A stretch of 64,000 bases of DNA from Gordonia sp. X0973 (GTDB lineage: Bacteria > Actinomycetota > Actinomycetes > Mycobacteriales > Mycobacteriaceae), in NCBI RefSeq assembly GCF_013348785.1, contig NZ_CP054691.1:1674001-1738000 (forward strand), in the 5' to 3' direction. Below, in pieces: positions 48,769 through 56,077 of the stretch. The notes beneath the pieces are model-generated. The model did not search any database. It was not told the DNA's origin and worked only from the letters and a program-made list of their open reading frames with translations. The position numbers and the translations under genes were made by a program. The stretch's first letter is position 1; each line of letters starts with the position of its first letter.

Positions 48769-48769
<1 letters not shown>

Positions 48770-49770
48770 TGGTCGCCGGTTCGTCGCGCACCGATCCGGA
48801 GCTCCTCGGGGCCGGTGTGCTGGCCGGACGTCGCGCCGATTTGGCGCGGGCGATCACCCTCGTCGAGTCGACCAACCCCGACCACCGGTCGAAGGCACAG
48901 GAACTGCTGCTGGCGATGACGCCGCACGCCGGGAACTCGTTCCGCGTCGGCATCACCGGCGTACCCGGCGTCGGGAAGTCGACGACGATCGAAGCGTTGG
49001 GGATGTACCTCATCGAGCAGGGCCACCGTGTGGCCGTGCTAGCCGTCGACCCGTCGTCGACCCGCACCGGCGGATCGATACTGGGCGACAAGACCCGGAT
49101 GGGCCGCCTCGCCGCCCACCCGGACGCCTATATCCGGCCGTCGCCGACGGCGGGCACCCTCGGCGGGGTCGCCAAGGCGACGCGGGAGACGATCGTGCTC
49201 GTCGAGGCGGCCGGGTATGACGTGGTGCTCGTGGAGACCGTCGGTGTCGGCCAGTCGGAGGTCACCGTCGCCAACATGGTCGACACCTTCACCTTCCTCA
49301 CCCTGGCCCGCACCGGCGACTCGCTGCAGGGCATCAAGAAGGGGGTCCTCGAGCTCGCCGACGTCATCGTCGTCAACAAGGCCGACGGCAAGCACGTCAC
49401 CGAGGCGCGGGCCGCGGCCCGCGAGCTGCGCGGAGCACTGAGCCTGATCTACCCCCACGACGCCTTCTGGACGCCTCCGGTGCTCACCATGAGCGCGTTG
49501 GAGAACAGTGGTGTCGACGACTACTGGGCCGCGGTGCAGCGGCATCGGCAGACGATGGTGGACGACGGCAGATTCGACGCGCATCGCAACCGCCAGCAAG
49601 TCGACTGGATGTGGACGATGGTGCACGACGAATTGCTCGCCCGTCTGGCGGGCAATCCGTCGGTCGGCGCGGTCCGATCAGACGTCGAGTCCCGGATCGG
49701 CGCCGGCGACCTCACCCCGGCGCTGGGAGCGGCGGAGATCCTGGCCGCCTTCGGCCGGCGCGCGGACTGA
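48769..49770 (+). CDS. meaB: G-protein chaperone of methylmalonyl-CoA mutase
   Basis: A 333-aa MeaB/ArgK GTPase that protects the mutase and gates cofactor loading. P-loop GVPGVGKST near residue 65, switch and base-recognition motifs [27 protein letters not shown] and NKAD. GTG start uses the last base of the mutB stop. In M. tuberculosis a mazEF toxin-antitoxin pair lies between mutB and the meaB homologue (Rv1496); here nothing intervenes. The lower-GC islet begins about 100 bp downstream. Confidence 0.95.
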
Positions 49771-49866
49771 GTGAATGGCATGATGAACCGACAGTGGCTC
49801 ATCTAACTCGACACCTGAGCTAAGGCCCCTGGCCCCGATCATCTTCTGACGCTGGTCACGGATAGT

Positions 49867-50199
49867 ATGAGCAGCACTATGCCAGCACAAGCTTGGGTTA
49901 CTCTGATCGTGGGTCTCGTCGCAGTTGTGGGTGTCGTTGCCACGCTCATCCAGCGCAATCGCGCCGACAATCGGCGAGAATGGTGGATGAGATTTCAATG
50001 GGCGATGGAGTCGACGTATAGCGGCGACGAGGGACGTCGACGTGACGGCTGGCGTATTCTCAGAACCCTGGTCGTATCGAATATCGCCACGAAATCGGAG
50101 GAGGATCTGATTTTGGAGCTTGCAGGTGAGGTGTTGAACGTGAGCCAGGGGACAGCACAGTCGGCGTCACGCCTAGGGCAGGGGGCTAACAGTGAGTAA
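49867..50199 (+). CDS. Small membrane-anchored protein of unknown function (islet gene 1)
   Basis: A 110-aa protein. One membrane helix near residues 8-28 (AWVTLIVGLVAVVGVVATLI) is followed by a basic stop-transfer (QRNRADNRREWWMRFQW), then a soluble mainly helical part. N-terminus out, C-terminus in is predicted. I do not recognise a family. Codon use is visibly richer in A and T than in meaB next door. TAGTAT (49863-49868) overlaps this ATG and lies 10 nt before a second in-frame ATG at 49879, which may be the true start. The last 8 bp overlap the next gene. Confidence 0.55.
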   Translation: MSSTMPAQAWVTLIVGLVAVVGVVATLIQRNRADNRREWWMRFQWAMESTYSGDEGRRRDGWRILRTLVVSNIATKSEEDLILELAGEVLNVSQGTAQSASRLGQGANSE

Positions 50200-50761
50200 A
50201 CTGGCCCGGAGCAGGCCGACTCGGAGCCGAGCGCGCGGGGAATCGCTAGGGGAACGTGTAGAAGCCGCTGCAACCATCGCGGCAATCTATGAGAAACGTG
50301 GCCAGAAGGTGCCCGAAGCGATTGAGGCAATTCTTTCTGTTCCCGAAACAGCGTTGGATTCGGATCGGATCGCCAAGGAAGATGAACTGGCTATCGCTGA
50401 TGAGGTTCGGAACGCGATTGAAGAGGCCAATCAGAAGGCCGAACTCAAAGCGGCTGAGCGTGCGCTAAAGGCGGCGAACATTGCTGAGGCGTTCATGAAT
50501 GGAGCCCATGTCACGGTCTACTCGTCGCGAGTTAGCGTCAACTCGCACGCCACACTGGCGAAGCTGGACCGAGACAAGATCCAATACGAAGAGGTCAGCA
50601 TCGAGGATGACGCAGACGCTCGCGACTACGTGATGGCGCTCGGGTACTTTCATACCCCTGTCGTGGTTGTCGGCGATCACCACTGGGCGGGATTTCAGCC
50701 TGACTATCTTGATGCCTTGTCGCTGCCGAACGCCCAAAAGGACCGGCCCGGTATCGCGTAG
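50192..50761 (+). CDS. Helical domain fused to a NrdH-like thioredoxin fold lacking both cysteines (islet gene 2)
   Basis: A 189-aa protein. Residues 1-20 are arginine-rich. Residues 20-103 are helical and charged, possibly coiled coil (ADEVRNAIEEANQKAELKAA). Residues 105-177 closely follow NrdH glutaredoxin: VTVYSSRVSVNS, LDRDKIQYEEVSIEDDADAR, DYVMALGYFHTPVVVVGDHH and WAGFQPDYLDAL. The redox CxxC is Ser115-Val-Asn-Ser118, so both cysteines are replaced while the cis-proline (Pro156) and the HWxGFxPD signature remain. Thiol chemistry is therefore unlikely; a binding or sensing role is inferred. GTG start, overlapping gene 1. Confidence 0.7.
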   Translation: MSKLARSRPTRSRARGESLGERVEAAATIAAIYEKRGQKVPEAIEAILSVPETALDSDRIAKEDELAIADEVRNAIEEANQKAELKAAERALKAANIAEAFMNGAHVTVYSSRVSVNSHATLAKLDRDKIQYEEVSIEDDADARDYVMALGYFHTPVVVVGDHHWAGFQPDYLDALSLPNAQKDRPGIA

Positions 50762-50810
50762 GGCTCTTCTGGCCAGTTGACCTGACGTACCCAGATCGCC
50801 GGCCCGGTAT
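50743..50810 (+). repeat. 12-bp direct repeat at the right edge of the islet
   Basis: CCGGCCCGGTAT occurs at 50743-50754, inside the last codons of islet gene 2, and again at 50799-50810, just after the nucleoside hydrolase stop. The copies start 56 bp apart. The sequence could be a duplication left by insertion or deletion. No third copy was seen at the left edge near 49771-49866. Confidence 0.5.
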
Positions 50811-50813
50811 GGG

Positions 50814-51779
50814 TCAGTCGGCCAGGTGCTGAGCCAGGCGGGCCAGAGCTTCCACCAACCCGTCGAGCATGGCCTCGGTGTCCGCCTCGGTGACGACCAG
50901 GGCGTTGGGCGGACCGGTCATCCAGCGGCGGTCGGCGACGGTCATCGCCCTGGTGTGCGTGCCCGCCAATTCCACCGCGACCCGGGCCGGCACCGCGGTG
51001 ACCGACTCGGGCGCCAACGCGACCATCGCCGCGAACGGATCGTGCAGGTAGGCCAGATAGCCCTCGTCCTGGGCGTCGTGGAACTCGAAGTAGAAGCGCA
51101 GCGCATCGGCGAGGTGATCGGTCAACACCCCGGCGGCGTCATCCCGCAGTTGTGCCAGATGCCGCGGCGTGAACCTCATCTGCTCGGTGATGTTCAGCCC
51201 GCACACCAACGGATCCGGTGCGTCGGGGCGGTCGAAGGCGGCGAAGACCTCCGCCGCCGCCTCCGGGTCGACGACCATGTTCCACTCGGCCACCGGCGTC
51301 GTGTTGCCCGCGACGCCGAAGGCGCCGCCCATGATCACCAGGCGCCGCATCCGGGTCGGTAGGTCGAGGTCGGCGCGGATCGCCAGCGCCAGGTTGGTCA
51401 GCGGGCCGATGGCGAGGCCGACGAGCGTGCCGGGGTGTCGTCGCCCGGCGTCGATCCAGGCCCGGGCGGCGTCGACCGGGGAGGCCGCGCGGGAGGCGGG
51501 CGGCAGTTCCGCGTAGCCGACGCCGCGCGGACCGTGGGTGTCCTCGGCCGTCCGCAGCGGCGCCGAGACGGGGCCGGGCGCGCCGCGGTGGACCGGCACG
51601 TCGTCGCGGCCGCACAGCTCGAGCCAGGCGAGGTTGTTGGCGACCACCACATCGGTGGGCACGTTGCCCGCGGTCGACGCGATGGCGACGAGGTCCACGT
51701 CGGTGCGGCCGAGCAGATACAGCAGCGCGAGAGAGTCGTCGATGCCGGTGTCGCAGTCGAGCAGTAGCGGGATGCCCAC
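50814..51779 (-). CDS. Inosine-uridine preferring nucleoside hydrolase
   Basis: A 321-aa nucleoside hydrolase that splits ribonucleosides into base and ribose for salvage. The calcium-binding N-terminal motif is LLLDCDTGIDDSLALLYLL, followed by AIGPLTNLALAI, IMGGAFGVAGNTTPVAEWNM and the C-terminal calcium-site aspartate in LHDPFAAMVAL. Base preference cannot be read. GTG at 51779 is chosen because TAGGGT lies 7 nt upstream and the N-terminus then starts at the first strand of the fold; the open frame continues upstream into non-coding sequence. Confidence 0.9.
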   Translation of the reverse strand: MGIPLLLDCDTGIDDSLALLYLLGRTDVDLVAIASTAGNVPTDVVVANNLAWLELCGRDDVPVHRGAPGPVSAPLRTAEDTHGPRGVGYAELPPASRAASPVDAARAWIDAGRRHPGTLVGLAIGPLTNLALAIRADLDLPTRMRRLVIMGGAFGVAGNTTPVAEWNMVVDPEAAAEVFAAFDRPDAPDPLVCGLNITEQMRFTPRHLAQLRDDAAGVLTDHLADALRFYFEFHDAQDEGYLAYLHDPFAAMVALAPESVTAVPARVAVELAGTHTRAMTVADRRWMTGPPNALVVTEADTEAMLDGLVEALARLAQHLAD

Positions 51780-51855
51780 GCCTGCGACCCTAGTGCGCGG
51801 TGCGGCCGCGGACCCGTGCGGATGCCGTAAGTATCCGGCCGACCGGGCAACGAGA

Positions 51856-51883
51856 AATCCCCGACCGGTTTCGGTCGGGGATT
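51856..51883 (-). terminator. Terminator hairpin of tRNA-Leu
   Basis: A perfect 12-bp stem (AATCCCCGACCG and its complement) with a 4-nt loop begins 5 nt past the 3' end of the tRNA. Read on the minus strand it is followed by a short T-containing stretch. It separates the tRNA from the nucleoside hydrolase promoter. Confidence 0.75.
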
Positions 51884-51888
51884 CGCGT

Positions 51889-51973
51889 GTCCGAGGGGGG
51901 ACTTGAACCCCCACGCCCGTTAATAGGGCACTAGCACCTCAAGCTAGCGCGTCTGCCATTCCGCCACTCGGAC
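51889..51973 (-). tRNA. tRNA-Leu (anticodon GAG)
   Basis: An 85-nt class II tRNA. The 7-bp acceptor stem is GTCCGAG paired with CTCGGAC. The anticodon arm CTAGC-TTGAGGT-GCTAG gives anticodon GAG, reading CUC (and CUU) leucine codons. A long variable arm (GCCC...GGGC) and the T-loop GGTTCAAGTCC are present. The 3' CCA is not encoded. Confidence 0.95.
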
Positions 51974-53939: not shown

Positions 53940-55577
53940 TCAGCGCTCCTGTCGGACGCCCGCGCCGACGGCGTCGGCGATCGTCGCGAAACCGGCTCCG
54001 CGGACCCGCGCGGCCAGCCCGGCGTGGATCGCCTCGGCGTAGGTCGGACCGGCGTAGATGAATCCGGTGTAGCCCTGCAGCAGGGTCGCACCGGCCAGGA
54101 TGCGCTCCCAGGCGTCCTCGACGTCGTCGATACCGCCGACGCTGATCAACACGAGGCGGTCACCGGCACGGGCGTAGAGGCGGCGCAGCACCGCCACTGA
54201 CCGTTCGCGCAGCGGGGCACCGGACAGTCCGCCCGCACCCGCGGCCTCGACATCGGCGGCAGGGGAGGCCAGTCCCTCCCGGGAGATGGTCGTGTTCGTC
54301 GCGACGATCCCGGCCAGGCCCGCCTCGACGGCCAGATCGGCGACGGCGTCGATGTCGTCGTCGGCGAGGTCGGGGGCGATCTTCACCAGCACCGGGCGGT
54401 CGGTGGCCGCGCGCACGGCGGCCAGGATGGGCCCCAGCTGTTCGACAGCCTGCAGGTCGCGCAGCCCCGGCGTGTTGGGGGAGCTGACGTTCACCACCAC
54501 GAAGTCGGCCAGCGGCCCCAACGAGGACGCGCCGTGGGTGTAATCGGCGGCGGCATCCGCCAATTCCACAACCTTCGTCTTGCCGATGTTGGCGCCGATC
54601 GGCACCGGGCAGGCGGTGCGCCGTCGACGGGAACGCCCCAGCCGGCGCGCGGCGTCGTCGGCACCGGGGTTGTTGAAGCCCATCCGGTTGACCAGCGCGT
54701 GATCGGCGGGCAGGCGGAACAGACGCGGCTTCGGATTGCCGGGTTGGGCCTGGCCGGTGATAGTGCCGACCTCGGCGTAACCGAAGCCCAGCGCACCCCA
54801 CGAGCGGACCGCCGACGCGTCCTTGTCGAACCCGGCGGCCAATCCGAGCGGCGCGTCGAACCTGGTCCCGAACACCTCCTGGCGCAGGATCGGATCGTCG
54901 CTGTGCAGCGCCCGCGCGACGAGGCGACCCACCCCGGGCACCGCGCCGACGAGCCGGATGACCCGGGAGGCGAGGCCGTGGACCGTCTCCGGCGACAGCC
55001 GGAACATCAACCACAGCAGCGGGGGATACAACACCGCGTTGAGTGCGGCGACCGTCCGCGAACGTTGTGCCGCGACCGGGACCGGGCTCTCGAGGCTGCC
55101 GCCGAGCCGGGCGTCGGCGACCCCCATCGCGGCCAAGACCTTCTCCGGGTGCCGCGTCGAGACCAACCAGTAGGGGGTCGGGTCGTCGGGATCGTCGAGG
55201 ACCAGCAGCACCATGGAGTGGACCCAGCTGTGATGGACGAGGTAGGCGGCTGGATCGAGTTGGCGGCCCATCGCGGCGCTGCGGGCGCTGGGCGGAACCG
55301 TCAGGCCGCGGCCGACGATCGACCGGGGCAGGCGCGCCCGGCCGGCGAGCAGTTCGCCGTCGGCCGTGACGCGCACGCGGTGGCGGCCGACGGAGACGAG
55401 GACCGCGGCCAGCAACACGCCGATGACCAGGTAGGCCCACCAACTCCAGGAGGCGCGGTGCGCACCCAGGCGGATCTCGTAGCCGAGTACGGCGGTGAGC
55501 ACCGCGGCGGCCAACCACCACCACAGCGGCACCGACAGCCGTTCGTCGTATCGGTCGGTCTGGGCGTCACTAGTCAC
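53940..55577 (-). CDS. pyrD: DUF3093-dihydroorotate dehydrogenase (class 2) fusion
   Basis: A 545-aa protein in one frame. Residues about 8-160 are DUF3093 with two membrane helices ([20 protein letters not shown] and [18 protein letters not shown]) and the family ending [17 protein letters not shown]. Residues about 185-535 are quinone-linked dihydroorotate dehydrogenase: [36 protein letters not shown], catalytic Ser in [29 protein letters not shown] and [11 protein letters not shown]. PyrD oxidises dihydroorotate for UMP synthesis. No stop or internal ribosome site separates the parts. The GTG at 55577 has TACGCT 7 nt upstream. The two parts are separate genes (Rv2698 and Rv2139) in M. tuberculosis. 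Confidence 0.88.
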
Positions 55578-55584
55578 GGCGCTC

Positions 55585-55594
55585 AGCGTAGTCT
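55585..55594. promoter_or_regulatory. Overlapping divergent -10 boxes of the DUF3093-pyrD and dut genes
   Basis: Within 10 bp: TACGCT on the minus strand (55590-55585), 7 nt before the DUF3093-pyrD GTG, and TAGTCT on the plus strand (55589-55594), 6 nt before the dut GTG at 55601. The boxes share two bases, so polymerase can occupy only one at a time. Confidence 0.55.
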
Positions 55595-55600
55595 GCGGTG

Positions 55601-56077
55601 GTGTCCGACCGAACTCCGTCACCGTCGTCCAGTGATCCATTGCGCATTCGGCGCCTCGACAAAGATCTGCCGCTCCCGCTGCGTGCGCATCCCGGGGACG
55701 CCGGGATCGACCTCTACAGCACGACCGACGCCGAGCTGGCCCCCGGGCGCCGCCAACTGGTCGGAACGGGGATCGCGATCGCCTTGCCGATCGGGACGGT
55801 CGGGTTGGTCCACCCCCGTTCGGGGCTGGCCGCGCGCGCCGGGCTGTCTATCGTCAACACGCCGGGAACGATCGACGCGGGCTATCGGGGGGAGATCAAG
55901 GTCTGTTTGATTAATCTCGATACCGAGGAACCCGTCGTCATCAAGCGTGGCGACCGGATCGCCCAGTTGGTGATCCAGCGCGTCGAGCTGCCCGAACTCG
56001 AAGAGGTCGAGGAACTCGACGACACCAGCCGCGGCGCCGGGGGATACGGGTCCAGCGGCGGCCACGCGGCGTTGTAG
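55601..56077 (+). CDS. dut: dUTP diphosphatase
   Basis: Hydrolyses dUTP to dUMP and pyrophosphate, keeping uracil out of DNA and supplying dUMP for dTMP. The 158-aa trimeric-type dUTPase has all five motifs: [46 protein letters not shown] and the flexible [11 protein letters not shown] arm. A GTG one codon earlier (55598) is possible; 55601 fits the 6-nt distance from TAGTCT. Same place as Rv2697c, next to the DUF3093 gene. Confidence 0.95.

Follow-up and report, generated by a model that had tools for sequence, protein, structure and literature searches.

The locus described here raises the question of what a pair of small, overlapping genes of low GC content is doing among the metabolic genes of Gordonia sp. 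X0973, and why the second of them should end in a domain that resembles the redoxin NrdH in fold and lacks its two redox cysteines. The features concerned are collected in Table 1, and the window means the whole stretch of 64,000 nt that was analysed. Both frames proposed by the initial annotation were recovered, with ORFs that overlap by 8 nt, and the difference in composition that it had seen from the neighbouring meaB was borne out: the stretch between meaB and the nucleoside hydrolase gene has a GC content of 0.58 against about 0.70 in its flanks, and GC3 is 0.627 in gene 1 and 0.635 in gene 2 against 0.904 in meaB.

Table 1. Features of the locus, in window coordinates.
Feature	Position	Strand	Basis or remarks
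meaB, left flank	48769..49770	+	ORF; 88–91% identical in G006, G009, G010 and G040
58% GC stretch, 1043 bp, carrying both genes	49771..50813		GC content and comparison with relatives
Gene 1	49867..50199	+	One membrane helix (predicted), then charged helical domain with EWWxRxxWA motif
Gene 2	50192..50761	+	189 aa; GTG start; AGGGGG upstream; 8-nt overlap with gene 1
Gene-2 family core, residues 10–51	50219..50344	+	Common to short gene 2s of other genomes
Long charged helix, residues 52–102, joining core to NrdH-like domain	50345..50497	+	Structure model, made without relatives
NrdH-like domain, residues 107–177	50510..50722	+	SVNS for CxxC; WAGFQPD for WSGFRPD
Nucleoside hydrolase, right flank	50814..51781	-	Pfam IU_nuc_hydro, E 6.5e-86; start codon approximate, longest frame 50814–51914
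tRNA-Leu(gag)	51887..51973	-	1.1 kb past the 1043-bp stretch

The four closest relatives by meaB indicate how the stretch may have arisen. Since three of them (G006, G009 and G010) have the hydrolase gene directly after meaB, with about 1–50 bp between, the two-gene stretch would be either an insertion in this genome or a loss in these three relatives; the fourth (G040) has different DNA at the site. Flanking repeats that could name an insertion mechanism were sought and none was convincing, and the ends of the stretch are not clearly marked; at its right edge there is a direct repeat of 12 bp (50743 and 50799). The tRNA-Leu(gag) gene gave no sign of use as an integration site, and scans for promoters and terminators found none, where 0.3 and 0.5 would be expected by chance. 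The genes around the pair are metabolic. One of the frames further along the window (53940–55640, minus strand), uninterrupted over 566 aa, joins DUF3093 (E 3.2e-48) to dihydroorotate dehydrogenase (E 3.1e-86) and may represent a naturally occurring fusion between a membrane domain and PyrD.

Gene 1 specifies the putative membrane component. Its likelier start is 49879 and not 49867, because the gene-1 family as a whole conserves the start MPAQAWV. In the MPAQAWV form, a single strongly hydrophobic stretch is found in protein 1, from residue 6 (best 19-residue mean 2.65), and the best mean in protein 2 is 0.85. The structure model (mean pLDDT 79.8) consists of helices at residues 4–46, 51–66 and 72–101, the first of which holds the hydrophobic segment, followed by many arginines. 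According to the positive-inside rule, the arginine-rich side of a membrane helix faces the cytoplasm, so that the bulk of the product after the helix would be cytoplasmic. No PDB entry matched gene 1 at E ≤ 0.001, whether by fold or by profile. A T4SS pilin, NinB and a holin were considered as identities and rejected, the Pfam and PHROG matches being weak, below cut-off or insignificant. In the protein database, a cluster representative 98% identical to gene 1 lies on a contig of 2,298 bp; taken with the protein-2 cluster described below, it suggests that there may be at least one further occurrence of the window pair.

Searches with gene 1 show what the pair is, namely one copy of a widespread, unnamed two-gene module of actinobacteria. 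Gene-1 relatives occur in 9 of 59 genomes of the genus (with a maximum in G048, seven matches at six loci), in 91 of 401 genomes of the family, where they are spread over 14 of 31 genera and often present in several copies, and in 20 of 394 genomes of the class; a wider profile found them in 34 of 397 genomes of the order and 4 of 396 of the phylum, the family, class, order and phylum samples overlapping one another. The protein database holds 170 relatives, with Gordonia, Rhodococcus, Mycobacterium, Tsukamurella and Williamsia among their sources. Among the 120 listed, those that have a name are called 'hypothetical' or 'uncharacterized', and a Pfam domain is recorded for none. Three IMG/VR contigs also carry gene-1 relatives; relatives of protein 2 were absent from the viral contigs.

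What makes this a module is a short gene downstream of gene 1, which has a core with a consensus of the type VAAAAARASIAxRERxGREVPQWIRDxAAG. Of 93 distinct gene-1 units, 81 have the core downstream of gene 1 or fused to it, as do 61 of the 73 units outside the profile training set; the units come from loci picked by score or by eye, and those held out are related to those used for training. In view of this co-occurrence, the idea that the two genes came together by chance was rejected. The core profile was also compared, for control, with 2,350 ORFs of 45–200 aa from 32 long loci, and gave 31 matches, all ending 157–530 nt behind a gene-1 match, and none from the other 2,319. The commonest junction is a 4-nt overlap (ATGA), found in 39 of the 81 units; frameshifted copies and distant ones are among the 12 of the 93 units that lack a recognisable gene 2. 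Gene 1 and the core also occur fused in one frame (L147, 30.1 bits; L212, 27.1 bits; and L218, a weak case at 13.3 bits). Physical contact between the two products is supported by these sequence relations, namely the co-occurrence, the overlap and the natural fusions.

Copies of gene 1 that are split between two frames or contain stops were seen at seven loci (L033, L037, L040, L042, L046, L165 and L175), some with an open gene 2 behind, so that the module is often broken. In five genomes of one genus (g6), elements whose left ends are similar interrupt gene 1 at one and the same site, the W of AQAW (L130, at 3303/5509 and 9253/17008; L131; L133; L139; L173). The four right ends observed are alike as well, and one of the elements encodes a tyrosine recombinase (Pfam) as part of what we take to be a Tn554-type set; gene 1 seems to be the target site of these elements. 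In another genome (G187, L137 7905–9689), a gene-1 copy that is matched only from profile position 29 adjoins a serine recombinase gene (Resolvase, E 7.5e-24), which looks like the outcome of an element's integration into gene 1. A gene for an M18-type aminopeptidase, named by eye, adjoins the module at three of the g6 loci (L130, L131 and L133) and in a distant family (f36, L180).

Gene 2 usually adds little to its core. Measured as longest frames, 73 of the 78 separate gene 2s have 48–95 aa, and the five longer ones, including that of the window, have 113 aa (L184), 131 aa (L146), 155 aa (L155), 181 aa (L210) and 189 aa (the window). The core is doubled in L184, L037 and L222. In L155 and L179 it stands behind DUF2188 (PF09954), which was detected with an E value of 1.1e-18 in the 146-aa form of L155, where the core occupies residues 98–146; in L210 a C-terminal stretch of about 120 aa follows, for which a Pfam match is absent. 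As other gene 2s also carry additions, the architecture in the window looks like the extreme case of an occasional tendency, with an NrdH cargo that is unique within our searches: an NrdH-fused gene 2 was found in the window genome only, among the genus genomes, the protein database, the viral contigs and the 93 units. In the protein database, full-length relatives of protein 2 were absent, and the search returned nothing beyond the same protein in a shorter form, as a cluster of three member sequences on two contigs. The initial annotation had made co-occurrence outside one strain decisive, and on this point gene 1 and the core do recur together, whereas the fused form does not.

The core in the window was recognised by a profile that was built from 20 gene 2s with the window's own excluded. 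It scores 26.0 bits in the first 75 residues and 22.6 bits in the whole protein, and the best of 2000 shuffles of those 75 residues reached 15.8 bits. In the structure model, two core helices (residues 19–35 and 42–48) lead into a helix some 50 residues long, which the NrdH-like domain follows. The core and this arm were modelled without relatives and the NrdH part with 16 NrdHs of the genus, the input being restricted to NrdH rows because aligning complete gene 2s together with these rows in MAFFT misplaced the gene-2 ends. The earlier view of gene 2 as an NrdH-like domain fused to a charged helical region, and coupled to a membrane protein with one helix, is supported.

The identity of the C-terminal domain, with SVNS where NrdH has CxxC, had likewise been proposed, and profile, model and Foldseek agree on it. 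Residues 107–176 match the NCBIfam NrdH family TIGR02194 (E 1.6e-17; 63.5 bits, short of the curated cut-off of 85.75 bits) and residues 107–165 match Pfam Glutaredoxin (E 9.1e-8), and the sequence match of protein 2 to the NrdH structure 4hs1 has an E value of 3.4e-18. The NrdH fold was modelled confidently (block mean pLDDT 88–95 over residues 101–170), and Foldseek aligned it with 4hs1 at 1.3 Å over 71 columns with a probability of 1.00. A canonical NrdH (TIGR02194, 114.5 bits, CxxC present) is encoded elsewhere in the same genome, so the NrdH-like domain of gene 2 is an extra copy.

The sequence of this extra copy reads VTVYSSRVSVNS, compared with ITVYTKPACVQC in all of the first 29 genus NrdHs examined, and it has SSRVSVNS for the loop TKPACVQC. 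The 59 genus genomes contain 85 other NrdH-type matches, one of them the canonical copy of this genome, and every one of the 85 keeps CxxC (CVQC in 80), making the window domain the sole case without it among 86. A close homologue with an intact CxxC at this site, which by the initial annotation would have refuted its reading, did not turn up in the genus search: none of the other matches extends into the gene-2 part, each of them beginning no earlier than query residue 85. The WSGFRP motif is significant in NrdH redoxins; W.GF.P is present in 77 of the 85, and in the WAGFQPD of the window a Q replaces an arginine conserved in the aligned genus domains. Faulty sequencing and a point mutation of recent date were both rejected as causes of the missing cysteines, since the whole loop has changed and the genome is a single contig of 3.75 Mb with a completeness of 99.99%.

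Forty positions are conserved to at least 95% in the genus, of which the window domain keeps 23 and changes 17. The changes are uneven: 7 of 18 such positions are kept in residues 105–130 against 16 of 22 after residue 130 (two-sided Fisher p 0.053), and YVMALGY, PVVV and GF.PD are retained while the active-site loop is for the most part altered, the two cysteines included. Because the redox face departs further from the conserved pattern than the remainder of the domain, a binding role is favoured over a redox one, in line with the selection on binding that had been argued for at the outset; the Fisher test is small, and the bias only suggestive. These data also bear on the idea that an nrdH gene came to lie behind gene 2 by accidental capture and that its domain is inert and decaying, so that only gene 1 and the core matter. 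The loss of 17 of the 40 positions, the confinement of the fusion to one genome and the frameshifted or interrupted state of several gene-1 copies in relatives would all fit such a history, which we nonetheless place on the unlikely side in view of the 189 codons that are open without a stop, the 16 of 22 positions retained in the second part of the domain, and the fact that cysteines and loop changed together around unchanged motifs.

The reading that we put forward, tentatively and with somewhat less than even confidence, is that gene 2 specifies a membrane-coupled adaptor whose non-redox, NrdH-like domain is held at the membrane to bind a partner of NrdH. The product of gene 1 would span the membrane with a single helix and present its helical domain on the cytoplasmic side, and the gene-2 core, as a short hairpin of helices, would dock there. 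To this core the strain has added a C-terminal arm and an NrdH domain, the latter with its fold preserved and both redox cysteines gone; the resulting tether would run from the core on the gene-1 product through the arm to the NrdH-like cargo. Held there, the dead domain could bind, sequester or recruit the normal partner of NrdH without electron transfer. We infer how this complex lies in the membrane, that it acts by binding, and what it binds. The most plausible partners would be thioredoxin reductase and the class Ib ribonucleotide reductase, as a cysteine-free copy could dock on either enzyme and block or recruit it. In the available text of a study of Mycobacterium tuberculosis (PMC10371808), NrdH takes electrons from thioredoxin reductase, and NrdE is absent from the NrdH partners given there for pull-downs, which weakens the ribonucleotide reductase option. 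With 17 of the 40 conserved positions changed, including the arginine of WSGFRP, the usual partners may no longer bind the window domain at all. In a wider and, in our estimate, unlikely form of the proposal, the module would be an actinobacterial membrane-tethering platform with exchangeable gene-2 domains, and the pseudo-NrdH a decoy or regulator of the thioredoxin reductase–ribonucleotide reductase branch; gene 1 would then be the anchor, the core the dock, and the gene-2 domain would decide what the membrane holds.

The initial annotation had, as an inference, pointed to defence or stress modules. In a module of this kind the dead NrdH would be bait for NrdH or ribonucleotide reductase partners encoded by phages, and would signal through the membrane protein. 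NrdH-type proteins do occur in some phages, many of them actinobacterial (74 of 50,697 INPHARED records match protein 2), and the module is sporadic, of low GC here, and sometimes on plasmids, 15 plasmid records matching the gene-1 relative P0009. Neighbouring genes are suggestive in two cases: in G115 (L134, 3484–8422), two module copies run on the opposite strand, the first shortly upstream of HmaA and the second in the interval from HmaA to HmaB, and in G048 (L136) a copy lies 0.8 kb from a protein matching several defence nuclease models. These are, however, 2 of 25 neighbourhoods, recognised by eye and without a baseline, with three neighbour proteins run through PADLOC, and by eye most of the 25 are metabolic, as is the surrounding of the window pair. 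PADLOC gave no family at E 0.01 for protein 1 or protein 2, and P0009 matched none of the 50,697 phage records. An anti-phage function is accordingly judged quite improbable, and the earlier suggestion was not upheld.

Small, overlapping and scattered genes that are sometimes plasmid-borne and recur several times in a genome, as in G048, also bring to mind a toxin–antitoxin-like pair, with gene 1 as a membrane-active toxin and gene 2 as its neutraliser; gene 2 is moreover intact behind an interrupted gene 1 in L130, L131 and L133. One-frame fusion and a toxin-first order are both unusual for toxin–antitoxin pairs, yet one-frame fusions of gene 1 and gene 2 exist and the presumed toxin comes first. 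In addition, apart from the redoxin families, no known family gave a significant match above cut-off, and this possibility is considered very improbable.

Redox-dead thioredoxin folds serving as binding modules are known in general. What appears new from these comparisons is the place of the islet in a common, unnamed module, of which it is a member with a cargo. More broadly, a widespread pair of 'hypothetical' genes turns out to be built to one design, which comes with fusions in nature and with domains added to it; an unnamed gene family becomes testable, and the window variant offers a cargo with recognisable candidate partners. A search of literature titles and the beginnings of abstracts with a few terms, which is weak evidence of absence, returned nothing on a cysteine-free NrdH or on the gene 1–gene 2 module.

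Among known systems, the NrdH redoxins (TIGR02194; PDB 4hs1, 4f2i and 4fiw) are alike to the window domain in fold and domain length, share with it the motifs YVMALGY, PVVV and W.GF.PD, and are 44–52% identical to it in the case of these structures; the window domain differs in having no CxxC, in scoring below the family cut-off, in being fused to a helical region, and in the change of 11 of the 18 strongly conserved positions of the active-site half. With the unnamed module the window pair has in common gene 1 over most of its length, the gene-2 core, the gene order and a short overlap, and it departs from it in the 8-nt size of that overlap and in a gene 2 of 189 aa, against the usual 48–95, that ends in an NrdH-like domain. 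The NrdB of Facklamia ignava carries a fused glutaredoxin domain that works as a reductant according to the title of the paper describing it (PMC6187632), so that there too a redoxin domain is joined to another protein, whereas that of the window has an active site without cysteines and is joined to a presumed adaptor. A parallel in design within the module is the gene 2 of L155 and L179, which combines the same core with an additional domain as in the window; its DUF2188 is N-terminal and unrelated to NrdH, unlike the C-terminal domain described here.
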